A DNA stretch of 64,000 bases, from assembly GCF_017939745.1 (NCBI RefSeq), contig NZ_JAGKQQ010000001.1, positions 4,588,001 through 4,652,000 on the forward strand. The letters run 5' to 3'. This stretch comes from Gemmata palustris (lineage in GTDB: Bacteria > Planctomycetota > Planctomycetia > Gemmatales > Gemmataceae). The translations under genes and the position numbers were made by a program. Each line of letters starts with the position of its first letter. Positions within the stretch are counted from its first letter, which is position 1. The notes beneath the pieces were generated by a model that saw nothing but the letters and a program-made list of their open reading frames with translations, did no database searches and was not told the DNA's origin. Positions 5,435 to 15,017 of the stretch are shown piece by piece.

Positions 5435-6709
5435 TCACGCCGCGGTTTGCGTGTTTGGGGTGTCGTCTTTCTCCACTGGCTGCCGTTTCCGGAACGGGCT
5501 TCCGGATCGGTCAGTGAAGTACCGACTCAAGCGATCGTCCTCGCTCAGAACGGCCGCCCGGAGTTGCAGGATGGATTCGGCCCCGTCCGGGCGGTTCCAG
5601 TGCTTCTGCTTCCCTTTCACACGAGCGCTGAACTCACCCACCAGCGACTCCACCAGGCTGCTCGTCGTCGGCAACCCCTCACGCCGGTATCTCGGGTAGT
5701 CCATCCGCTTCTCGTTGTTCCTCAGGTAGCACCTCGCCTCGGCCACCAACCGACGTGGGTCACGGCGGTCCTCCGCCGTCCTTGCCTCACCCGCCGGCGA
5801 CTCTCCCAGGCGTTCGTGCCACCCGTCCAACTCCACCAGCACCTCGGCGACCCGGCCCTTCCAACACGAACGCATCCACGCCTCGTACTGTCGCCACCCG
5901 CCCGACTCGTCCCCGCCCACCGCACGCGCCGACGAGTACACGTAGCACAGCACGTGCAACAGGTCCACGACCGGCTCGAAGTCCCGGAAGTACCCCTCGT
6001 GGATCGACCAGTTGTACGCCGCCCCGTCGGCCACGAACGCCCGGCGCCTCGCCTCGTAGAAGTGCCGCTCTTGGGCCTCCGCCGCCACCAACGGGCCGAA
6101 CGAACAACTCGATCCCAGGCTCGCCACACACGTCCGCACCAACTTCTCCGGTGACCACCGCCCGGCCGACCCGGTCGCGATCGGCTCGACTCCGGCCGTG
6201 GTCGATTCGTCCGGGGTTTCTTGGGTATCGTCCCGACCCGAGTGCCCCTTCATCTGGCTCACCAGACGTTGCACCCGGCGGGGGCAGAGGAACGACTCCG
6301 GCGGTTCGGGGCACGGGTCGGCGGCGAACGTCGGACCCTTCAACGTGGCCAGACCGGCGATCTTGTCCTCCTTGTTCTGGGCTTCGTGGACACCAGGGGC
6401 CGCCCCCGCCGCGCGGGTACGGATGCGCCCCCCATCGACCTCCACCACGACGACCTCGGGAACCACCCCCGTCCGCGAGGCCAGTTGCCGGCGGCGGTGC
6501 TCGACCGCCTTCCGGTCCCGTTCGGCGACCAGTTCCGCCCCGACCTTGTGGGCCAGCCGGCGGACCTGGCTCTCGCTGATGCCGACCCGCGACATCTGCA
6601 CGGCGAAGGTGGCATCGCGGAACGACGCGAACCGGGCGGCGGCGGTGACGATACGCTCGAGGACGGAGGAACTGTACCCGTGCTCATCCAGGCCCAGAGC
6701 CGTCCGCAG
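5435..6709 (-). CDS. ISKra4-like transposase, catalytic part (orfB)
   Basis: This is the C-terminal 424 residues of the transposase, read in a frame shifted by one base relative to orfA. It begins LRTALGLDEHGYSSSVLERI at a run of C residues. DDE-type catalytic residues are visible: EVDGGRIR (first Asp), FVADGAAYNW (second Asp) and SSLVESLVGE (Glu). KRMDYPRYRREGLPTTSS and VKGKQKHWNRPDGAESILQL are characteristic of the ISKra4/UPF0236 group. It needs fusion with orfA by frameshifting or slippage at 6709-6719 to make one protein of about 540 residues. Otherwise the copy is inactive. Confidence 0.8.
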   Translation of the reverse strand: MRTALGLDEHGYSSSVLERIVTAAARFASFRDATFAVQMSRVGISESQVRRLAHKVGAELVAERDRKAVEHRRRQLASRTGVVPEVVVVEVDGGRIRTRAAGAAPGVHEAQNKEDKIAGLATLKGPTFAADPCPEPPESFLCPRRVQRLVSQMKGHSGRDDTQETPDESTTAGVEPIATGSAGRWSPEKLVRTCVASLGSSCSFGPLVAAEAQERHFYEARRRAFVADGAAYNWSIHEGYFRDFEPVVDLLHVLCYVYSSARAVGGDESGGWRQYEAWMRSCWKGRVAEVLVELDGWHERLGESPAGEARTAEDRRDPRRLVAEARCYLRNNEKRMDYPRYRREGLPTTSSLVESLVGEFSARVKGKQKHWNRPDGAESILQLRAAVLSEDDRLSRYFTDRSGSPFRKRQPVEKDDTPNTQTAA

Positions 6710-7064
6710 GGGGGAAAAAGTCCCGGCGGCAGTCGGGACAGTGGGCCTTGCGTTCCGTCTGCTCGACCTCGGCTCCGTCCGCGGTGAGCGGTCGGGTGTG
6801 CGGCGTCGTGGGACAGAGCGTGCCGCACGCCGGACACGGCTGTTCGGTGGAGAGCTTGTCGGCCTGCTGTTGGAGCAGCAGTTCGAGTGTGCCCTCGGTG
6901 AGTCCCCGGGCCGCGGCGGTGGCGATCTGCTCCATGGCTCGGAAGTCCACGTCGAGTCCGGGGCCGTCGTCGCCGAAGGCCCGCTTGGAGACGATCTTGG
7001 CCCACTGCCGGGCGAGGTCGTGGAGTTGGCGGAGTTCCTCGGGCGTGAAGCGGGGCGTCGGCAT
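6684..7064 (-). CDS. ISKra4-like transposase, N-terminal part (orfA)
   Basis: About 126 residues from the ATG at 7064 (MPTPRFTPEELRQLHDLARQ). The frame is open a little further upstream. It contains two CxxC pairs (QPCPACGTLCP and AHCPDCRRDFFPP) that form the zinc-binding region of ISKra4 transposases. The frame ends 20 codons after the second pair at a TGA. The family sequence continues in the +1 frame from the FFPP codons, which sit on a T5C6 run (6709-6719). A truncated relative of the same N-terminus occurs at 37980 in this window. Confidence 0.75.
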   Translation of the reverse strand: MPTPRFTPEELRQLHDLARQWAKIVSKRAFGDDGPGLDVDFRAMEQIATAAARGLTEGTLELLLQQQADKLSTEQPCPACGTLCPTTPHTRPLTADGAEVEQTERKAHCPDCRRDFFPPADGSGPG

Positions 7065-7246
7065 GGCTCGTCCTGCCTTGAGGTTGCGTCGACGACGGGT
7101 TGGGGATTTCCTATCCCGCCCTCGAAACACTGCTAGCCCCCAACAAACCGTGAACTGACCTCGGCGCCAAGTTCCGGGCGACTACCGCGCTTGCACCCGG
7201 CGCGGGCACCGCATACCATCCTCTTCACCACACTCGGGAAGTGACG

Positions 7247-9016
7247 ATGGCCCGTGACCGTAAACCTCCACCACCCGCTGGAAACGGCCCCGACTGGGAC
7301 CGCACGGTGCGGCTGTTCCAGGCGGGCGCGCCGGAGTTCGTGGACGCGATCCGCCAGCGCGTGAACGCTCCCGCGCTCGCCACGTTCGCCGAGACGTGGT
7401 GGACGGACCCGCGGATCGAAGCCAAGCGCCTGCTGTTCAACTACCTCGACCTCCCGTTCAACGCCCCCCGGCACGAGCCGCTCGTGAAGCGGCTGTTCAA
7501 GTTCGCGGACACGACCGGCGACGACGCAATCATGGCGCGGTTCCTCGTCGGGTTCGATCGCACCATCCGGCGCCGGCGCAGTACGAAGCAAAAATACAAC
7601 TATCGTTCGCGCAGTTACGAGCAGTACGAAGCCGTCACCACACCCAGCGACACGACGCTCTCGCGCGACGACCGCTCGTACTCGGGGCCGTGGTTCAGCC
7701 AGAACCGCGAACAGTTCACGCAGGGCAAGTTTCTGTTCTCGGTTCCCACCCGGAACTACCTCCGGCGCCGGGCGTGGCGGTACTTCCGCAAGCTCGGGCG
7801 CAAGGAGCCCGCGCGCTACATCCCCGCGGTCTGCGCCGCCCTGAAACTCTACACCGACGCGGACGTTCCCGACGGCCTCGCGCTGCTCGACAATTGGGGC
7901 CTCGTTCACGTCCTGTTTCACCACTCGCCGACCATTGTCTCGAAGCCGGCGGGGTGGCGCGTCGCGGACGGGGGAACGCTGTCGCGGTTGCAGCCGGACC
8001 CGATGTTCCGCAAGTTGTGGCTGCGCAGCCCGGAGCCGATCTTCGACCTGTTGGTGACCGCGAAGTGCCGGCCGGTCGCGATGTGGGCGGTGCAGATGCT
8101 CCGCAAAAACTTCCCGGACCGGCTCGCGCAACTCACGCTCGACGAGATGCTCGCGTGGGTGACGGCACCCAACGGCGCGCTGAACGAACTCGCGCTCGAA
8201 CTGCTCGAAGCGCGCGGCGGACTGGAAGAAGTCAGCGTCGAGCAGTGGTTGCGCATCACGGAAGAAGTGCGCACCGATCTGCTCGACCGAATTTGCACAA
8301 TGGTCGAGCGCAACGTGAAGCCGGAGCAGGTCACGTTCGCGTCCGCGGTGCGGCTCGCGATGCAGCGGCCCGTTCCGCTCGCGCGCCTGGGTTTTGCTTT
8401 CCTCAAAGGTAAGAAGCCGCGCACGCAAGATGAGTTGACTGCGGTGTTTAACTTGCGGAACGCGGAGGCCGAACCGCTCCGCGCCGATCTCGTGAAGTGG
8501 GCGTGCGAGGCGCTGAGCGGCCGAACGGACTTCGACCCGCTGTGGGTGCTGGAGTTCCTCGATAGCCGCTTTGAAGAGGTGCGCGAGATCGGTTGGGAAT
8601 GGCTTCAGATTGAACCGCGTGCGCGCGACGCGATCCAGGTGTGGCAACGGCTATTAGAATCGCCCTACGACAACATTCGGTTGCGACTCGTGGGAATGCT
8701 GGAGGATCGCGCCAAGGAACCCGCGGGGCTGACGAAGTTCTCCCCAGAGCGCGTGCGGTTCCTGTGGGCCACGGTGCTCCTGAACGTTCACCGCGGGAGC
8801 CGCGCGAAACCGTTCGTGGTACGGCAAATTATCGACCGCCTCACGGACCACCCGGACGAAGCCGGTGACCTGCTCCCGATGGTGGCGGTCGCACTCCGCT
8901 CGGTGCGCGGGCCGGAGTTCCGTGTGGGGTTGGCCGGCGTTGCGGGCTTCGTCGCGAAGAACCCGACGCGGAAGCCGCTGGTGGAAGCAGTATTCCCGGA
9001 GTTACAGTGGAACTGA
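7247..9016 (+). CDS. ARM/HEAT-like repeat protein of the retron locus
   Basis: 589 residues from the ATG at 7247, which has GGGAA six bases upstream; an in-frame GTG at 7241 is less well placed. The first half is basic and aromatic (TIRRRRSTKQKYNYRSRSYE, then FSVPTRNYLRRRAWRYFRKL). The second half consists of amphipathic helical repeats such as LAQLTLDEMLAWV, GALNELALELLEARG and FEEVREIGWEWL, which resemble armadillo/HEAT repeats. No signal peptide, membrane segment or catalytic motif is visible. It is the first gene of a co-directional set with a winged-helix-SWIM protein, a small protein and a retron-type RT, and two RNA-like elements lie between it and the next gene. From memory, type XIII retrons are described with an ARM-type partner. 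The assignment rests on that context. Confidence 0.72.
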   Translation: MARDRKPPPPAGNGPDWDRTVRLFQAGAPEFVDAIRQRVNAPALATFAETWWTDPRIEAKRLLFNYLDLPFNAPRHEPLVKRLFKFADTTGDDAIMARFLVGFDRTIRRRRSTKQKYNYRSRSYEQYEAVTTPSDTTLSRDDRSYSGPWFSQNREQFTQGKFLFSVPTRNYLRRRAWRYFRKLGRKEPARYIPAVCAALKLYTDADVPDGLALLDNWGLVHVLFHHSPTIVSKPAGWRVADGGTLSRLQPDPMFRKLWLRSPEPIFDLLVTAKCRPVAMWAVQMLRKNFPDRLAQLTLDEMLAWVTAPNGALNELALELLEARGGLEEVSVEQWLRITEEVRTDLLDRICTMVERNVKPEQVTFASAVRLAMQRPVPLARLGFAFLKGKKPRTQDELTAVFNLRNAEAEPLRADLVKWACEALSGRTDFDPLWVLEFLDSRFEEVREIGWEWLQIEPRARDAIQVWQRLLESPYDNIRLRLVGMLEDRAKEPAGLTKFSPERVRFLWATVLLNVHRGSRAKPFVVRQIIDRLTDHPDEAGDLLPMVAVALRSVRGPEFRVGLAGVAGFVAKNPTRKPLVEAVFPELQWN

Positions 9017-9057
9017 ATCGGGTGCCCCGCTCACGGAGCGGGTCGCACGGAAAGCTA

Positions 9058-9269
9058 CGGTGTCCGTCGCGATCCGAGACCACCATGCTGCGATGTTCCG
9101 TCGCGGTTGAAGTTGCTCGCGATTGCGTCCCCAGGTGCGTTGTTCTTGTTCGCCCGCCCCGGACCGGTCGGGCCGAACTGAATCGACCCGAGTCCTCGGC
9201 CCGACCGGTCCGGGGCGGGCGTCGTGAACGCATCTGGTCCACGATTGAAGTCGGTTGCGGCGGACACCG
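9058..9269 (+). ncRNA. Retron msr-msd-like RNA, copy 1
   Basis: The order matches a retron RNA. The outer stem (a1) at 9058-9070 pairs with a2 at 9257-9269 over 13 bp with one G-U. An inner CCGA (9074-9077) pairs with TCGG (9251-9254). A small hairpin follows at 9088-9106 (GCGATG-TTC-CGTCGC core). A long hairpin then has an 11-bp base CCAGGTGCGTT/AACGCATCTGG (9131-9141 with 9227-9237) and a perfect 25-bp upper stem (9151-9175 with 9197-9221) with a 21-nt loop containing CTGAATCGACC. The conserved G after CCGA (9078) is a candidate branching guanosine. Flanks are nearly identical to copies 2 and 3, while the upper stem is unrelated in sequence. Confidence 0.75.
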
Positions 9270-9281
9270 CGAAACACGGGT

Positions 9282-9388
9282 GAACCCCGCCCGCAAGGGC
9301 GGTGGGTAGCCCAACAACTAATGGCAATGGTGATTGGCGGTCAACCTTTGGTAGTGAGTTTCACCCGCCGCCCTTGCGGGCGGGGTTC
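9282..9388. repeat. 107-nt palindromic repeat between RNA copies 1 and 2
   Basis: Arms 9282-9307 and 9363-9388 are complementary over 26 bases with one G-T, around a 55-nt spacer. The core CCCGCAAGGGCGG resembles the arms of the dispersed family seen at 11359, 23904 and 45256 (ACCGCAAGGGAGCGG). A related short palindrome (ACCGACCGCACGGTCGGGGC) lies just after RNA copy 3 at about 12217. Confidence 0.7.
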
Positions 9389-9406
9389 GCCAAGATTGCC
9401 AAAACT

Positions 9407-9609
9407 TGGGTGGTGGTTCCGAGACCTTCTCTGCGGCGCTCCGCCGCGGGTGCGGTTGCTTGCGATTGCGTTCCCAGGTGCGTTGTTCTTTATCGCCCGG
9501 CCCGGGTGGTCCAGGCCGTACTGAATCGACCGGCGTCTCCGGCCCGGACCACCCGGGCCGGGCGTCGTGAACGCATCTGGTCCACGATAGAAGTCGGTTC
9601 CACCACCCA
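9407..9609 (+). ncRNA. Retron msr-msd-like RNA, copy 2
   Basis: It has the same architecture as copy 1. a1 at 9407-9416 pairs with a2 at 9600-9609 (10 bp), then comes a TT/TT internal loop, then CCGA (9419-9422) with TCGG (9594-9597). The small hairpin at 9431-9449 has a GCGGCG-CTC-CGCCGC core. The 11-bp base of the long hairpin is 9474-9484 with 9570-9580. The upper stem is 9494-9518 with 9540-9564: 25 positions, one A-C mismatch, 21-nt loop. Relative to copy 1 the small hairpin changes on both sides in a pairing-preserving way, and the upper and outer stems are different sequences. It ends 43 bases before the SWIM gene. Confidence 0.75.
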
Positions 9610-9652
9610 TGATTCTCAGGCGCCCGTCATTGGCCGGGCGAGAGGTCGCTGA

Positions 9653-11347
9653 ATGCTGCTGAACACGGCGTATCGCGGGCGGAGCAACGTCGCACAGACC
9701 CCCGTCGGCTTGGCGGTGTCGCTGGCGCCCAACTTGCGCCGCGACCGCGTGAGCTTCGTGGGTGTGCTGCGGCAACCGCTCCGTTTCCGCGAAGCGATGT
9801 CCGCGCTCCACGATGTCGTCATTTCTGATTTGCGCTTCAAACCAAAAGACAAGACCGGCTACGAGGAATGGAAGAAGCAAGAGGCCGCGAAGGAAGCCCG
9901 TATCCGCACCGAGGCCGTGAAACTCACGCGCGCGGAACTCGAGAAAGAGCGCGGGCGCCCGATGCCGCAGGGCCTGGAGCGGCGCTTCCAGAAGTGCCGA
10001 CAGCGGTACTGGGAGGCGCGCACGCGGTACGGCAACTTGCTCTCGCGCGAAGACCCGGAATTGTGGCGCATGCTGATGCCGTGCGACCCGGTCATCACCG
10101 TCAGCCCGGACGTGATGTTCTTCGAGTGCTTCAGTGCGGACGAGAGCAGTTACGGGTGCCTCACGGTCGAGCGCGAGGCGTTTGAAGCCGAAACCGATGT
10201 GGCGCTCGGCACGACAAACGTCGATTATTCGTGGCGCCTTTACGAACACTTTCAAACCATTCGGAGCTACCGCGAAACGCGGTTCACCATCGACCCAATG
10301 GGCTTCGAGGTGCAGACCACGTCGGACGAAGCGGGGTACCGCGAAGAGAAGATTGACCTCCCCCAATCGTGGCTCCGCGGGTTCTCGGCACTGCAATCCG
10401 CGATGAGTTTGCCGATGCGCCGCGTGCCGGTGAGCCGCGAAGGGATTTATGCGCTGGTCGCGTTCCTGAAGCGCCACAAGGCGAAGGCGTCGCCGCGTGC
10501 GGTTCGCTTTGAACTGACGCCCGGGGCACCGGTGAAGATCGTTCTCGAGCCGTGGAACAAGGAGATCGTCCTTCACGATACGCCGTACCCCGGTCCGCGC
10601 AAGGAGGTGATTCGCACCTGGGGCCGCGATCGGCTCCGCGTGTTGGGTCGGCTCCTTCCGCTGCTCGATGGCGTGGACGTGTACCTGCTCGGGACGGGCC
10701 TGCCCAGCTTCTGGGTCGCGAAGATGGGCGAGATGAAGCTGACGCTCGGGCTCTCAGGGTGGACCACGAACGACTGGACCAGTGGCGGCAGCGCGATCGA
10801 TCAACTCGCGCCCCCCGTCGCCCCTTCGACCGAGGTGATGAACGCGATGGCGGCCGCGTTCAAGCAGTCGCCGACATGGACGCTCGACGCGCTCGCGAGC
10901 AAGACGCGCGCTTCGGCGCCGGTGGTGTCGGCCGGGTTGAACAAGCTCGCGCTTCTGGGGCAAGTGATTCACGATTTGCCGCACGGCGTGTACCGGTGGC
11001 GCCAGGTGATGCCGGTCACGCTCTCGGCGGAAGTCATTGGCCCGGAAAACGAAGAGACGGTGGCCGCACGCGACCTGAGCCGGTGGAAGTGCCGCGTCAC
11101 GTCCGACACCGTGGACGCGAAGGGCCAGCGCCGCGTCGTGGGGACGGTCGACGGGCGGGCGGCGTCGGAGGTCACGCTGGACGCGGACGACCGCATTGTG
11201 GCGGGCAAGTGCGCGTGTTCGTACTTCTACACGGGCGGCTTGCGGAAGGGACCGTGCCGGCACCTTCAGGCGCTCCGCAACAAGGCGCTCGATATTGGGA
11301 CGGATGGCGGCACGCTCGATAGCTGGTTCAAGCGGTTCACGAGCTGA
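9653..11347 (+). CDS. Winged-helix and SWIM zinc-finger protein of the retron locus
   Basis: 564 residues, ATG at 9653 with GAGAGG upstream. Residues of about 395-450 look like a winged helix (PTWTLDALASKTRASAPVVS then GLNKLALLGQVIHDL), and near the C-terminus there is a SWIM zinc motif with C520, C522, C535 and H537 (CAC...CRH). The N-terminal 380 residues are not recognised, although a charged helix lies at 75-125. SWIM domains bind DNA or protein, so a nucleic-acid-binding or effector-regulating role is plausible. It sits between RNA copy 2 and the small anchored protein, on the same strand as the RT. Type XIII retrons are, from memory, described with a WH-SWIM protein. Confidence 0.78.
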   Translation: MLLNTAYRGRSNVAQTPVGLAVSLAPNLRRDRVSFVGVLRQPLRFREAMSALHDVVISDLRFKPKDKTGYEEWKKQEAAKEARIRTEAVKLTRAELEKERGRPMPQGLERRFQKCRQRYWEARTRYGNLLSREDPELWRMLMPCDPVITVSPDVMFFECFSADESSYGCLTVEREAFEAETDVALGTTNVDYSWRLYEHFQTIRSYRETRFTIDPMGFEVQTTSDEAGYREEKIDLPQSWLRGFSALQSAMSLPMRRVPVSREGIYALVAFLKRHKAKASPRAVRFELTPGAPVKIVLEPWNKEIVLHDTPYPGPRKEVIRTWGRDRLRVLGRLLPLLDGVDVYLLGTGLPSFWVAKMGEMKLTLGLSGWTTNDWTSGGSAIDQLAPPVAPSTEVMNAMAAAFKQSPTWTLDALASKTRASAPVVSAGLNKLALLGQVIHDLPHGVYRWRQVMPVTLSAEVIGPENEETVAARDLSRWKCRVTSDTVDAKGQRRVVGTVDGRAASEVTLDADDRIVAGKCACSYFYTGGLRKGPCRHLQALRNKALDIGTDGGTLDSWFKRFTS

Positions 11348-11358
11348 CGGCGGATTGA

Positions 11359-11458
11359 ACGAGCCGCGACCGCAAGGGAGCGGTGGCTAGTCGCTTCCTG
11401 AGTGTTGGATCCTGCCGCAAATGGCTGCGCCTTCCGCTCCCTTGCGGTCGCGGCTCGT
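11359..11458. repeat. Dispersed palindromic repeat (REP-like), copy A
   Basis: Perfect 25-base inverted arms (11359-11383 and 11434-11458) surround a 50-nt spacer. Near-identical arms recur at 23904-24004 and 45256-45353 with unrelated spacers. All three lie between genes, so this is a genome-wide intergenic repeat family rather than part of the retron locus. Confidence 0.85.
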
Positions 11459-11499
11459 GACAAAGAAACGGGAACCGGGGTAACTCAAGGGGCATTCTG

Positions 11500-11982
11500 G
11501 TGACGAAGTCGGTTCTGTTCGCGGGCGTGCTCGGGGGATTGCTCGGTGGGTTCGGTGGCTACGCATTGCTACGGACGCTCCCATCGACCTTGAAGTCGGC
11601 ACAGGTTCCCGACGCGCCCCGGAGCGAAGCGCGCGCGCTGGCCGATGAGTTGGTCGCGAAACTGAAGGCCGGCAAGAACGATGAGTTCCTCGCGGTCGTG
11701 CGATCGGGCTTCAACGAATTAACCGACGATCAGTTCGGTCAGCTCGGGCTGCAGATGAAGACCATGCGCTCCAATTTCACGAGGGTGTACGGCGCGCCGA
11801 GCGAGTTCGAGTTCGTTCGCGAGACCACGTTCGGCGGCGACGCCGTGCGGTTCGCGTACACCGAGAAGTTCCCGCACGGGTGCGTGGTGTGGTCCTTCAC
11901 GTATTACGCCAGCCCCAGCGGGTGGCAGGTGTCGGGCTTCCAGTACCGGAAGCTGGATTCCGCGTTTGAATCGGGGTTGTGA
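11500..11982 (+). CDS. Small membrane-anchored protein of the retron locus
   Basis: 160 residues from a GTG at 11500, with AAGGGG about eight bases upstream. Residues 5-28 form one glycine-rich hydrophobic segment (VLFAGVLGGLLGGFGGYALL), a membrane anchor or uncleaved signal. The remainder is a small alpha+beta domain with a helix rich in Lys and Glu (RALADELVAKLKAGKNDEFL) and strands such as VVWSFTYYASPSGWQVSGFQ, which recall NTF2-like or DUF4864-like folds; this is only a resemblance. It lies 20 bases before RNA copy 3 and 270 bases before the RT on the same strand. It may be the third accessory protein of the retron or an unrelated passenger. Confidence 0.7.
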   Translation: MTKSVLFAGVLGGLLGGFGGYALLRTLPSTLKSAQVPDAPRSEARALADELVAKLKAGKNDEFLAVVRSGFNELTDDQFGQLGLQMKTMRSNFTRVYGAPSEFEFVRETTFGGDAVRFAYTEKFPHGCVVWSFTYYASPSGWQVSGFQYRKLDSAFESGL

Positions 11983-12002
11983 TACCGAACCACTGAAGCC
12001 AA

Positions 12003-12205
12003 GCGACCGGCTCCGAGACTTAAACATCCTGCGGCGCTCCGCCGCGGGTGCGGTTGCTTGCGATTGCGTTCCCAGGTGCGTTGTTCTTTATCGCCGGTCG
12101 AATTCGTGGCCTTCCGGCCTGAATCGACCGGCGTCGCCGGAAGGCCACGAATTCGACCGGCGTCGTGAACGCATCTGGTCCACGATTGAAGTCGGAGCCG
12201 GTCGC
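12003..12205 (+). ncRNA. Retron msr-msd-like RNA, copy 3 (adjacent to RT)
   Basis: This copy directly precedes the RT gene, the usual retron position. a1 at 12003-12016 pairs with a2 at 12192-12205 over 14 uninterrupted base pairs that include the CCGA/TCGG core. The small hairpin is at 12029-12047. The 11-bp base of the long hairpin is 12072-12082 with 12168-12178. The upper stem is perfect over 27 bp (12092-12118 with 12136-12162) with a 17-nt loop. Arms plus loop total 71 nt, exactly as in copies 1 and 2. The candidate branching G is at 12017. Outer and upper stem sequences are unrelated to those of the other copies. Confidence 0.8.
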
Positions 12206-12255
12206 CTTGTTTACCCACCGACCGCACGGTCGGGGCTTGCCGTGCGAGCGCTGTC

Positions 12256-13854
12256 ATGAGCATGTTCGACTGGATCTTCCGGCGCAAGCGCGACGTAACC
12301 CCGTCCGCGGAGAGCGCTCCGCCCTCCGTTCCCCCGCCACCCGATCCGCGCCCCCAGCAACAAGCGCCGAAGGCCGAACCGCAAGCCGAAGCGGTCGGCG
12401 ACCCGTACTCCGCGTCGGAATTTTTGCCCATCTCGAGGCAGGAGATCGTGGACGCGGCCCAGAAGCACGGGCGCCTGCTCGCGACCGCGTTCCAGTTCGG
12501 GCGCCAGAGCATCATCCCGCCCGTCAGCGACCCGCGAACCGAGATCATCGACCGCGCACTCGTCACGAACGGTCTCCTTTCGCCGGAAGAACTCAACGAG
12601 ATCCACCGCGTCGGCGAGGAGTACGAGAAGGTCCGCCCGACCGAACAGGGCATGGCCGCGGCCGCAGGATTGGCGGGTAACGCTGCGGTGAAAGCGTACC
12701 GCGAAGCGAAGGAGCGCGCGAAGGCCCGCAAGAAGGCCGAATCCGCCGAACGGAAGAAAGCGCGTGCGGAGGCGGTGCGGCGCCGACGGGCCACGGACGT
12801 CATCTTCCTGGGGCGCGGCGTCTCGGGCCGGCTCCACCTGCGCATGAGCGATGAGGCGAAGCTCACCGCGCTCGGGCTGCCCGTGCTGCACGCGCCCGCG
12901 GACGTCGCGAAGGCACTCGGGCTAACGATCAAGCAACTCCGCTGGCTCAGCTTTCACACCGAAGTGGCTACCCGCACGCACTACGTCAAGTTCCAGGTGC
13001 CGAAGAAGTCCGGCGGGGTGCGCACGCTCGCGGCCCCACACAAGAAGCTCAAGGCCGCGCAGCACTGGATTCTCGGGAACGTCATCAACAAGTTCCCGGT
13101 GACCGAAGCGGCCCACGGTTTCGTTGCCGGGCGCGGGATCGTGACCAACGCAAACCCGCACGTGAACAAGGCCGTGGTCGTGAACCTCGACCTCTCCGAC
13201 TTTTTCCCATCAATCGCGTTCTTCCGCGTGCGCGCGGTCTACGAGCGCTACGGCTACTCCGGCAGCGTCGCGACCGTTCTCGCGCTACTCTGCACCGAGT
13301 GCCCGCGCACCGCCGTTACCTACGCGGGCACGAAATACGAAGCCGCGACCGGCCCGCGCGGGCTCCCGCAAGGCGCGCCGACCAGCCCCGGGCTGTCGAA
13401 CCAGGTCGCGCGCAAGCTCGATAAGCGGCTGCTCGGTGTCGCGGCGAAGCTCGGTCTCACCTACACGCGGTACGCGGACGACCTGACGTTCTCGGGCGGC
13501 GCGGAACTCGCGGGGAAGATCGGCTGGCTGCTCGCGAAGGTGCGGAACATCTGCCGGGAAGAGGGGTTCGCGGTCAACGAGAAGAAGACCCGCGTGATGC
13601 GCCGGAGCGCGGCGCAGGTGGTCACGGGCGTCGTGGTGAACGACAAGCCGTCCGTGAGCCGAGACGAGATTCGCCGACTGCGTGCGATCCTTCACCGCGC
13701 GAAGAGTGAGGGGCTCGACGCCCAGAACCGCGAGGGCCGCGAGAACTTCCGCGAGTGGCTCGCGGGCAAGATCGCGTTCGTGAACATGGTCCGCCCGGAC
13801 GTGGGCGCGAAACTAAAAACCGCCCTGGACTCATTGGGCGAACGGCCGGCGTGA
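12256..13854 (+). CDS. Retron-type reverse transcriptase with long N-terminal extension
   Basis: 532 residues, ATG at 12256 (a second in-frame ATG is at 12262). The RT core spans about 240-510: VKFQVPKKSGGVRTL, the retron NAXXH motif as NANPH (298-302), LDLSDFFPSI (motif A, 311-320), LPQGAPTSPGLSN, the catalytic YADD (406-409) and the retron VTG motif (456-458). The NAXXH and VTG motifs separate retron RTs from group II intron and DGR enzymes. The first 235 residues are unusual: a Pro/Gln-rich linker (about 18-45), an acidic helical segment and a strongly basic Lys/Arg/Ala coil (146-180). It would reverse transcribe the msd part of one or more of the three RNA elements. Its start lies 50 bases after the a2 end of copy 3. 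Confidence 0.93.
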   Translation: MSMFDWIFRRKRDVTPSAESAPPSVPPPPDPRPQQQAPKAEPQAEAVGDPYSASEFLPISRQEIVDAAQKHGRLLATAFQFGRQSIIPPVSDPRTEIIDRALVTNGLLSPEELNEIHRVGEEYEKVRPTEQGMAAAAGLAGNAAVKAYREAKERAKARKKAESAERKKARAEAVRRRRATDVIFLGRGVSGRLHLRMSDEAKLTALGLPVLHAPADVAKALGLTIKQLRWLSFHTEVATRTHYVKFQVPKKSGGVRTLAAPHKKLKAAQHWILGNVINKFPVTEAAHGFVAGRGIVTNANPHVNKAVVVNLDLSDFFPSIAFFRVRAVYERYGYSGSVATVLALLCTECPRTAVTYAGTKYEAATGPRGLPQGAPTSPGLSNQVARKLDKRLLGVAAKLGLTYTRYADDLTFSGGAELAGKIGWLLAKVRNICREEGFAVNEKKTRVMRRSAAQVVTGVVVNDKPSVSRDEIRRLRAILHRAKSEGLDAQNREGRENFREWLAGKIAFVNMVRPDVGAKLKTALDSLGERPA

Positions 13855-14001
13855 GCCGGCTGGTGGTGATGTAACCACGTTTGCCCAGAATTGATTCACC
13901 GGCTACACACTTGTTTGTTTCGGTCCGCTTGCTAACGGCTTATTTACTTGCCCCGATCGCCTTACCAGCCGGTTTACACCGGCCGTTCGCCAGGAGGCTT
14001 C

Positions 14002-14946
14002 ATGCGACTCTTTCTCTCCTTCACGGCGCTCGCGTTCGCGCTGCCCGCGTTCGCGGCGGACGCGCCCAAGCACCCCGGTTACCGCGTGCTCGCGCAGGAC
14101 AAAGGGCACGTGGTGCTCGTCGGGACCGATGGCAAGATCGAGTGGGAGGTGGAGTGCAAACACAACTCCCACGACATCGATCTGCTCCCGAACGGCAACC
14201 TGCTCCTGCACACCGCCCCCGCGACCGTGACCGAGATGACGCCCAAGAAAGAGGTCGTGTGGAAGTACGAGGCGAAGCCGAAGGAGGGGTACAAGGGGCG
14301 CATCGAGGTTCACGCCTTTCAGCGCCTCGCGGACGGTAACACGCTCGTCGCGGAGAGCGGCAACAAGCGCCTCGTGGAGGTCGATAAGGACGGCAAGATC
14401 GTGAAGGAAATCGCGCTCAAGGTGGAGAAGCCGGACCCGCACCGCGACACGCGCATGGTGCGGAAGCTCGATACCGGGAACTACCTCGTGTGTCACGAGG
14501 GCGACGGGTGCGTCCGCGAGTACGATGCGACGGGCAAGGTCGTGTGGGAGTACAAGCTCGACCTCGGCGGGCGCAAGGCCTCGGACGGTCACGGCCCGGA
14601 GGGGCACGGGACCGCGGTGTACGGCGCGCTGCGCCTGGCGAACGGCAACACCGTGATCGCGGGCGGGAACAACAACCGCGTCCTGGAAGTGGACAAAGAC
14701 GGCAAGGTGGTGTGGAGCATCGATCAGAAGGAACTGCCCGGCATCACGCTCGCGTGGGTCACGACGCTCCACGCGCTCCCGAACGGCAACCTCATCGTGG
14801 GCAACTGCCACGCGGGGCCGGACAACCCGCAGCTCTTCGAGGTCACCCGCGACAAGAAGGTGGTGTGGACATTCAAAGACTTCAAGACGTTCGGCAACAG
14901 CATGGCGACGTCCCACGTGCTGGACATCAAAGACGTGAAGCGCTGA
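14002..14946 (+). CDS. Exported PQQ-like beta-propeller protein
   Basis: 314 residues with a short signal peptide (MRLFLSFTALAFALPAFAAD). The ATG at 14002 has AGGAGG five bases upstream, which decides the start. The mature part is a run of propeller blades with motifs such as RVLAQDKGHVVLVGTDGKIE, VDKDGKIVKE and LPNGNLLLH/LANGNTVIA, as in PQQ-like or arylsulfotransferase-type propellers. Catalytic residues are not evident. It is co-directional with the RT, about 150 bases downstream, but has its own ribosome-binding site and a strong terminator, so it is probably a separate unit. Confidence 0.82.
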   Translation: MRLFLSFTALAFALPAFAADAPKHPGYRVLAQDKGHVVLVGTDGKIEWEVECKHNSHDIDLLPNGNLLLHTAPATVTEMTPKKEVVWKYEAKPKEGYKGRIEVHAFQRLADGNTLVAESGNKRLVEVDKDGKIVKEIALKVEKPDPHRDTRMVRKLDTGNYLVCHEGDGCVREYDATGKVVWEYKLDLGGRKASDGHGPEGHGTAVYGALRLANGNTVIAGGNNNRVLEVDKDGKVVWSIDQKELPGITLAWVTTLHALPNGNLIVGNCHAGPDNPQLFEVTRDKKVVWTFKDFKTFGNSMATSHVLDIKDVKR

Positions 14947-14968
14947 GAAATGGGTAGTGATTCGTGGC

Positions 14969-14997
14969 AAAGGCTCCCAGCGATTCTGGGAGCCTTT
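14969..14997. terminator. Intrinsic terminator
   Basis: A 12-bp stem AAAGGCTCCCAG/CTGGGAGCCTTT with a 5-nt loop, followed by CGCGTTTTT. It lies between two convergent genes and can serve both. Confidence 0.85.
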
Positions 14998-15017
14998 CGC
15001 GTTTTTGCGGGCGCGTT

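Follow-up and report, generated by a model that had tools for sequence, protein, structure and literature searches.

A probable multi-template type XIII retron of Gemmata palustris with diversified msd stems and a partner protein of predicted sliding-clamp fold

In this study, we analysed a stretch of 64,000 nucleotides of Gemmata palustris DNA (the window; C1:4588001-4652000 of the 9.2-Mb genome labelled G000, contig NZ_JAGKQQ010000001.1). A locus in this window, assigned to the type XIII retrons by PADLOC models, carries three copies of an msr-msd-like non-coding RNA (ncRNA) together with genes for a HEAT-repeat protein, a SWIM zinc-finger protein and a reverse transcriptase (RT). The differences between the RNA copies are concentrated in the two arms of one long hairpin, whose pairing and near-fixed length are kept. 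We consider it likely that in this type XIII retron one RT is served by several templates with exchanged stems, and we propose that a partner of predicted clamp fold reads the length of the duplex.

The three template RNAs and their locus

The three RNAs and their variable hairpins are listed below. R1 is an RNA model that was built with copies 1, 2 and 3 included, so their R1 scores hold by construction.

9058..9270, + strand: ncRNA copy 1 (P1) including the outer stem; fold z-score -10.2; R1 162.4 bits at 9088-9254
9151..9221, + strand: variable hairpin of copy 1, 71 nt; arms 9151-9176/9196-9221; basal stem 9131-9141/9227-9237
9402..9614, + strand: ncRNA copy 2 (P2); outer stem 9402-9422/9594-9614; R1 158.6 bits at 9431-9597
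9494..9564, + strand: variable hairpin of copy 2, 71 nt; arms 9494-9518/9540-9564, one mismatch
11996..12212, + strand: ncRNA copy 3 (P3); outer stem 11996-12016/12192-12212; R1 166.4 bits at 12029-12195
12092..12162, + strand: variable hairpin of copy 3, 71 nt; arms 12092-12118/12136-12162

We found that the elements fold into five parts, namely the outer stem, the msr-like hairpin, a basal stem of 11 bp, an upper stem of 25-27 bp and a loop, and the constant parts CTGCGG..CCGCGG, CCAGGTGCGTT/AACGCATCTGG, CTGAATCGACC and GAAGTCGG were found in them. The original prediction for this DNA had described three msr-msd-like elements with upper stems of this length, paired perfectly, with one mismatch and perfectly, and with arms plus loop of 71 nt in each. 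All of this agrees with the measured arms, in which 26/26, 24/25 and 27/27 positions of copies 1, 2 and 3 are paired, and with the folds, whose z-scores of -10.2, -8.1 and -9.4 were equalled by zero shuffles (200 for each copy). In addition, arm complementarity is 0.93-1.0 inside one copy versus 0.41-0.73 between copies. No Rfam family reached its gathering score in window positions 7000-15000.

When copies 2 and 3 were compared from the msr hairpin on (167 nt each), there were 32 differences, of which 31 fell on the 54 arm positions and one on the 113 other positions (Fisher 6e-18); the loop between the arms is identical in both. The near-identical flanks that had been claimed for all three copies therefore hold for this pair, but copy 1 has diverged outside the arms (11-12 of 96 positions differ from the other copies). 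The outer, a1/a2-like stems also vary among the copies, and that of copy 1 pairs only with bulges. Likewise, the stems had been called unrelated between copies; they do pair poorly across copies, but the arms of copies 1 and 2, both GC-rich, share 64% ungapped identity over 22 nt. Most work on retrons, engineering included, has dealt with a single template for each RT. Here, three templates adjoin the RT, two halves of a fourth lie elsewhere, and the usual count of one per RT does not hold.

The genes of the locus were identified with the family models of PADLOC-DB 2.0.0 (RT_XIII, SWIM_XIII and HEAT-ARM_XIII), Pfam and NCBIfam. The order on the plus strand is HEAT, RNA copies 1 and 2, SWIM, a small open reading frame (ORF), RNA copy 3 and RT.

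7241..9016, + strand: HEAT-repeat protein, 591 amino acids (aa); PADLOC HEAT-ARM_XIII, E 5.5e-180
9653..11347, + strand: SWIM zinc-finger protein, 564 aa; PADLOC SWIM_XIII, E 5.3e-182
11500..11982, + strand: small ORF, 160 aa, between SWIM and copy 3
12256..13854, + strand: retron reverse transcriptase, type XIII, 532 aa; PADLOC RT_XIII, E 1.3e-155; Pfam RVT_1

RT_XIII was the top match for the RT among 64 PADLOC families. The RT motifs YADD, NAxPH and VTG are unchanged across 8 homologues, and the latter two we take to be retron signatures. The RT of the type XIII clade, the SWIM and HEAT/ARM partners and an RNA of msr-msd type with outer inverted repeats are all present. By gene order only, HEAT, SWIM, RT and the RNAs are assigned to one putative operon.

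Related loci, distant copies and variation of the arms

RT orthologues with 78-94% identity were found in 12 genus-mates, with one to three elements each, and the order HEAT, RNA, SWIM, RNA, RT is kept in the orthologous loci as far as the contigs reach (in G005, HEAT lies off the contig). Furthermore, a GTDB scan gave 79 loci from the best 80 of 413 relatives, and these fall in planctomycetes, Verrucomicrobia, Myxococcota and others. After removal of 12 loci as duplicates and of 4 matches in which no msr hairpin was recognised (two of these later scored above 100 bits with R1), 61 elements were taken from these loci and the genus. The alignment A3 holds 59 of the 61, omitting a copy of L032 with arms equal to those of an L031 copy and the long L107 element; R1 was made from A3, and those 59 match it by construction.

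Among 95 family genomes, R1 matched the RNA in 28. These comprise 26/26 genomes with this RT clade and 2/69 without it (Fisher 2.5e-21; the clade cut, E<1e-160, was picked after the list was seen), and 20 of the 26 have at least two R1 matches. The two genomes with the RNA and without the RT clade are G001, which has a distant copy, and G446, with two weak tandem copies that go with a second type XIII clade. The search thus yielded more copies beside related RTs, with stems variable yet complementary. Genome-wide, the elements do not behave as a widespread family unlinked to any RT, though individual copies are unlinked. The proposal of a multi-template retron with a diversified stem is strengthened by the type XIII hits, by the RNAs beside orthologous RTs and by this near-strict co-occurrence. 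In G459 (L173 C216, L184 C49) and G442 (L174 C1, L175 C7), type XIII operons are apparently split, with SWIM (and HEAT) and RNA on one contig and the RT on another, possibly by assembly error.

The RTs of the second clade are 42-49% identical, and that of G446 scores 550.6 bits with RT_XIII. The elements of this clade vary in a similar manner. The tandem pair of G446 shows 31 differences, 27 of them at positions 78-91 and 133-148, and a change at 64 is matched at 159. In G464, two copies have one loop and different arms. A palindrome scan gave a second-clade hairpin of 93 nt in G000, G002 and G464, that is, 71 + 22 nt, or about one helical turn more per arm. In G000, a second type XIII-like operon lies at C1:1124149-1125309 (L047), with an ORF of 2302 aa, and one 93-nt hairpin element precedes the first ORF of this operon by about 1 kb (L188:5010-5102, reverse-complement coordinates).

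The original prediction had placed the elements around one RT, which proved too narrow: extra copies were found at distances of hundreds of kilobases or more, with no RT, SWIM or HEAT gene nearby. R1 matches away from the RT were found in G000, G002, G005, G008, G009, G010, G013, G014, G015 and G026, further distant copies in G460 and G497, and one distant place in G001. No RT, SWIM or HEAT gene was found at E<=1e-3 in 13 stretches of 2-19 kb around distant copies, nor at 1e-4 in two more stretches of 6.6 and 12 kb; the contigs are short in G001, G015 and G460. G026 has seven copies, of which five are distant and three of these in tandem. Among the parsed distant copies, 13/14 have at most 2 unpaired arm positions. 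In addition, outer stems are similar at one position across species and dissimilar between positions.

Most of the distant copies lie at one of two recurring places. At site A, a WD40/PSCyt1 gene precedes the copy in G000, G001, G002, G008 and G010 (by Pfam) and in G015 (by DNA alignment); in G497, from another genus, that gene (76-81% by tblastx) lies 1.6 kb ahead of the copy. Downstream of the copy lies an alpha/beta-hydrolase gene in G008 (by Pfam), with an aligned counterpart in G000 and G010. The site is not uniform: in G001 and G015, the DNA past the copy aligns beyond the hydrolase gene, and G002 is truncated. The flanking genes are about 1.57 kb apart in G008, and roughly 70-110 bp apart in G011 and G018, which have no copy there. 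In G016, the hydrolase side is present, but the stretch contains neither a copy nor a WD40 gene. At site B, the copy lies between the NfeD and FloA genes in G005 (by Pfam) and in the aligned DNA of G009, G013 and G014. A ricin-B-type lectin-like ORF adjoins the site A copy in G008 (L134:9686-10225) and G000 (L130:10193-10717).

In 47 parsed elements, arm positions are paired at 96.7% within an element versus 37.5% across elements, and arms plus loop measure 71 or 72 nt in 37 of the 47. Arm identity was compared over 37 elements (the ten from G026, G053 and G022 were left out), with four position labels assigned by hand from place and with a parser that skips the truncated distant copy of G002. 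The median identity of orthologous arms was 36% (155 pairs) and the mean of non-orthologous arms 35.4% (sd 12.3; 511 pairs), and over the orthologous pairs the 60 nt preceding the basal stem had a median identity of 85%. A clean bimodality of arm identity had been expected; the 155 orthologous pairs fall into 6 at >=80%, 34 at 50-80% and 115 below 50%.

The closest trio, G000, G010 and G008, forms one clade at 100/100, with G010 and G008 as sisters at 94/96. For the pairs G000-G010, G000-G008 and G010-G008, arm identity is 100%, 32% and 32% at position 1, 50%, 50% and 100% at position 2, and 36%, 32% and 23% at position 3. The preceding 60 nt are 95-100% identical in the trio (98-100% where the arms have only 23-36% identity), and the basal stem is 100% identical except at position 2 against G000 (68%). 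For instance, G010 and G008 share 90.6% identity at fourfold sites of the RT gene, yet their arms at positions 1 and 3 are unrelated. Meanwhile, the 3' arm of copy 3 equals that of a G002 copy over 26/26 nt, with one extra base in the 5' arm of G002, despite fourfold-site identities between G000 and G002 of 57.5% for RT and 61.1% for SWIM. Because of this match, the arms appear often to be held or replaced rather than to drift freely. The claim of selection on pairing and size, not sequence, is thus right for pairing and size, but it does not describe how the arm sequences behave.

In 68/68 pairs of copies from one genome (21 genomes, both RT clades), the arms have a higher density of differences than the remaining positions, with medians of 0.46 and 0.11 in 52 of the 68. 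The pairs come in sets of 52, 9 and 7; the broken G000 and G002 copies, an N-containing L059 copy, G494 and G496 are omitted, and gapped alignment understates the arm change. The non-arm parts are conserved RNA, and the arm density therefore shows tolerated change and not by itself exchange.

The position 1 arms of G002 resemble those at position 2 of G010 and G008 at 77%, and such recurrence at another position suggests that msd modules may move between sites. The loop of G008 copy 1 (L032:8845-8861) has a mini-stem with a mismatch, AAC...GTC, which looks as though its left half had arrived with the new arm while its right half was left in place. Of the three arms, those of copy 1 (pattern of 22 nt, 2 mismatches) and copy 3 (24 nt, 3 mismatches) were sought in 21 genomes, and every match lay within the element itself or an orthologue of it. 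Among the matches listed, BLAST of the arms against 1.9 Mb of DNA gave no other full-length match. Exact arm patterns occur in 0 (copy 3), 1 (copy 1) and 9 (copy 2) stretches of viral contigs, which were treated as chance because the patterns are very GC-rich. Viral contigs also hold seven relatives of the RT, with 29-41% identity.

Partner proteins and weighing of the explanations

Structures were predicted for both partner proteins from part of the homologues found, 24 sequences for SWIM and 22 for HEAT. The SWIM model had a pLDDT (predicted local distance difference test) of 78.2. Its residues 34-372 matched 3aix_A with Z 18.9 and a root-mean-square deviation (rmsd) of 3.0 over 233 aligned residues. 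All 50 structural matches listed were clamps or clamp complexes, and the best E-value in a Foldseek search was 1.3e-09. The SWIM protein is thus predicted to contain a two-domain sliding-clamp fold. In addition, C520, C522, C535 and H537, which we take to be the zinc ligands of the SWIM finger, are invariant in the 24 homologues. The AlphaFold model of the HEAT protein is mostly helical (pLDDT 89.6), and its structure search gave generic helical-repeat matches only, with Z up to 9.6.

As for the neighbouring features, the small ORF at 11500-11982 had no PADLOC or NCBIfam match and no Pfam match above the cut-off. It shows 36-51% identity in 9 genus-mates, versus 76-98% for the neighbouring proteins, and has a hydrophobic N-terminus; judged by these identities it seems to evolve fast, and it is an unproven candidate member of the system. 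Long palindromes at window positions 9279-9391, 11359-11458 and 13837-13991 are unrelated to the retron RNAs and are perhaps similar to repetitive extragenic palindromes (REP). Upstream of the operon, minus-strand ORFs at 5435-7130 resemble a broken transposase.

We propose that one RT serves the three adjacent templates and that many members of the genus have one further template for it at another chromosomal place. The constant parts (msr hairpin, basal msd stem and apical loop) would most likely be bound by the RT and its partners. The outer stem would be site-specific, and the 25-27 bp upper stem would be exchanged in sequence with pairing and length kept. Reverse transcription of every copy would give the cell a few branched multicopy single-stranded DNAs (msDNAs) with the same ends and different duplexes. 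The SWIM protein may grip or encircle the duplex and in this way read its length irrespective of sequence; such a sequence-blind grip would explain both the near-fixed length and the free sequence. In a defence role, the varied duplexes could act as different baits or could resist different phage enzymes. As to how both arms change while the loop is kept, our guess is that recombination replaces one arm and that the hairpin then templates correction of the second. A more specific version is possible but doubtful, namely a multi-bait sensor in which dispersed satellite templates add to the msDNA repertoire, the clamp-fold protein reads length, and the duplex sequence is an allele swapped against phage enzymes.

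Several observations weigh against this proposal. A single copy is commonest beyond the genus: among 40 genomes picked from the 79 loci, 31 have one R1 match and 9 have two to four, and 9/392 genomes of a phylum sample match R1, 8 of these 9 with a single copy (strict filters, few candidates scored). The site A copy of G000 is broken by an insertion of about 1.2 kb (L130:8636-10040) and its stem is bulged; the insertion has a repeated 12-mer at both ends, and its ORF reads by eye like an ISAs1-type transposase. The distant copy of G002 is without its 3' end, and that of G001 keeps 24/25 arm pairs though the genome is without this RT clade. Arm identity lacks a clean bimodal split, and in Paludisphaera soli two copies have nearly the same arms (2/54 differences), so arm difference is not required. 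The clamp fold rests on a single monomer prediction, and a profile of the 24 SWIM homologues against PDB sequences gave 3 hits at E up to 10, no clamp among them.

Among the other explanations, we take most seriously one that we put somewhat short of an even chance: the upper stem is a structural spacer of irrelevant sequence, and its arms change by rare insertion of a whole new palindrome. It fits the finding that arms from different positions resemble each other no more than orthologous arms do (means near 35%), the nearly constant hairpin length of each RT clade (71 nt in one, 93 nt in the other) and the tolerance of the Retron-Eco1 P4 stem to re-pairing (PMC11754653). Against it stands the 26-nt 3' arm shared with G002 at such low fourfold-site identity, a point that is weak either way because one-sided changes may be costly. 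It is unlikely that one template works and that the others are duplication relics kept folding by quasi-palindrome correction without selection. The commonness of single copies outside the genus and the two broken distant copies would suit relics, but the constant parts and the length are kept at recurrent distant places, where nearly all parsed copies are well paired, and arm-to-arm correction gives pairing and not the strong change in the arms alone.

It is quite unlikely that the arms differ only to stop co-expressed hairpins from annealing mutually. The arms inside one genome are indeed mostly dissimilar, but same-position replacement between close species and the near-identical pair in Paludisphaera soli would be left unexplained. 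We regard retrotransposition of msDNA, the origin proposed for the Nannocystis exedens repeats, as a very unlikely source of the extra copies. The available passages of PMC6868368 describe several msr-msd repeats of retron Nex1 without an RT within a kilobase and, citing Lampson and Rice 1997, read them as possible retrotransposition. However, the distant copies studied here carry msr and their own outer stem, both of which would be missing from an msDNA copy, and the contrast in the site A gap (70-110 bp versus about 1.57 kb) means that a larger segment differs there, not one element. Finally, it is barely credible that the elements are generic REP-like palindromes or terminators of a GC-rich genome and no part of a retron. 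Other palindromes do occur in the locus, some of them beside elements (9279-9391 and 11359-11458), but the R1 family is found almost only with the RT clade and in few genomes of the phylum sample, and REP sequences are not characterised by a conserved msr-like hairpin or by such linkers.

Comparison with known systems

In comparison with the type XIII retrons of PADLOC, all three proteins of the locus match strongly. In the literature searched (without doi 10.1093/nar/gkaa1149), several templates per RT, distant templates and a clamp fold were not found for type XIII among the matches listed, and the same matches held nothing on arm-limited exchange or conserved distant copies. The passages available from PMC12548924, PMC8867640 and PMC12887533 contain nothing on several templates. 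To our knowledge, there is no earlier report of a clamp-fold retron partner, and none was found in the literature searched, among the matches listed.

If the proposal is right, a natural template set that includes far copies would show a retron RT acting in trans on a repertoire, and the arm exchange would be a natural experiment on which part of the msDNA carries specificity. Furthermore, should the clamp fold of the partner protein prove real, it would connect retrons with sliding clamps.

The original prediction's mention of repeated msDNA-like sequences in Nannocystis was right in kind, to judge from PMC6868368. Copies of msr-msd without a neighbouring RT are common to Nannocystis exedens and the present retron. 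Stem exchange with pairing kept is described here for the present system. In Retron-Eco1, according to the available passages of PMC11754653, breaking the pairing of the P4 stem cut msDNA yield only at its base and tip, and re-pairing it with other letters restored the yield. In both systems, the sequence of the msd stem can thus be changed if pairing is kept; however, the Retron-Eco1 variants were engineered versions of one template, whereas here the variation is natural, among coexisting templates and at near-fixed length. Among DNA sliding clamps, which include PCNA and 9-1-1, the fold of PCNA can be superposed on the SWIM model (Z 18.9; rmsd 3.0 over 233 residues), and the SWIM protein adds to it a helical insertion, a further C-terminal region and the SWIM zinc finger.

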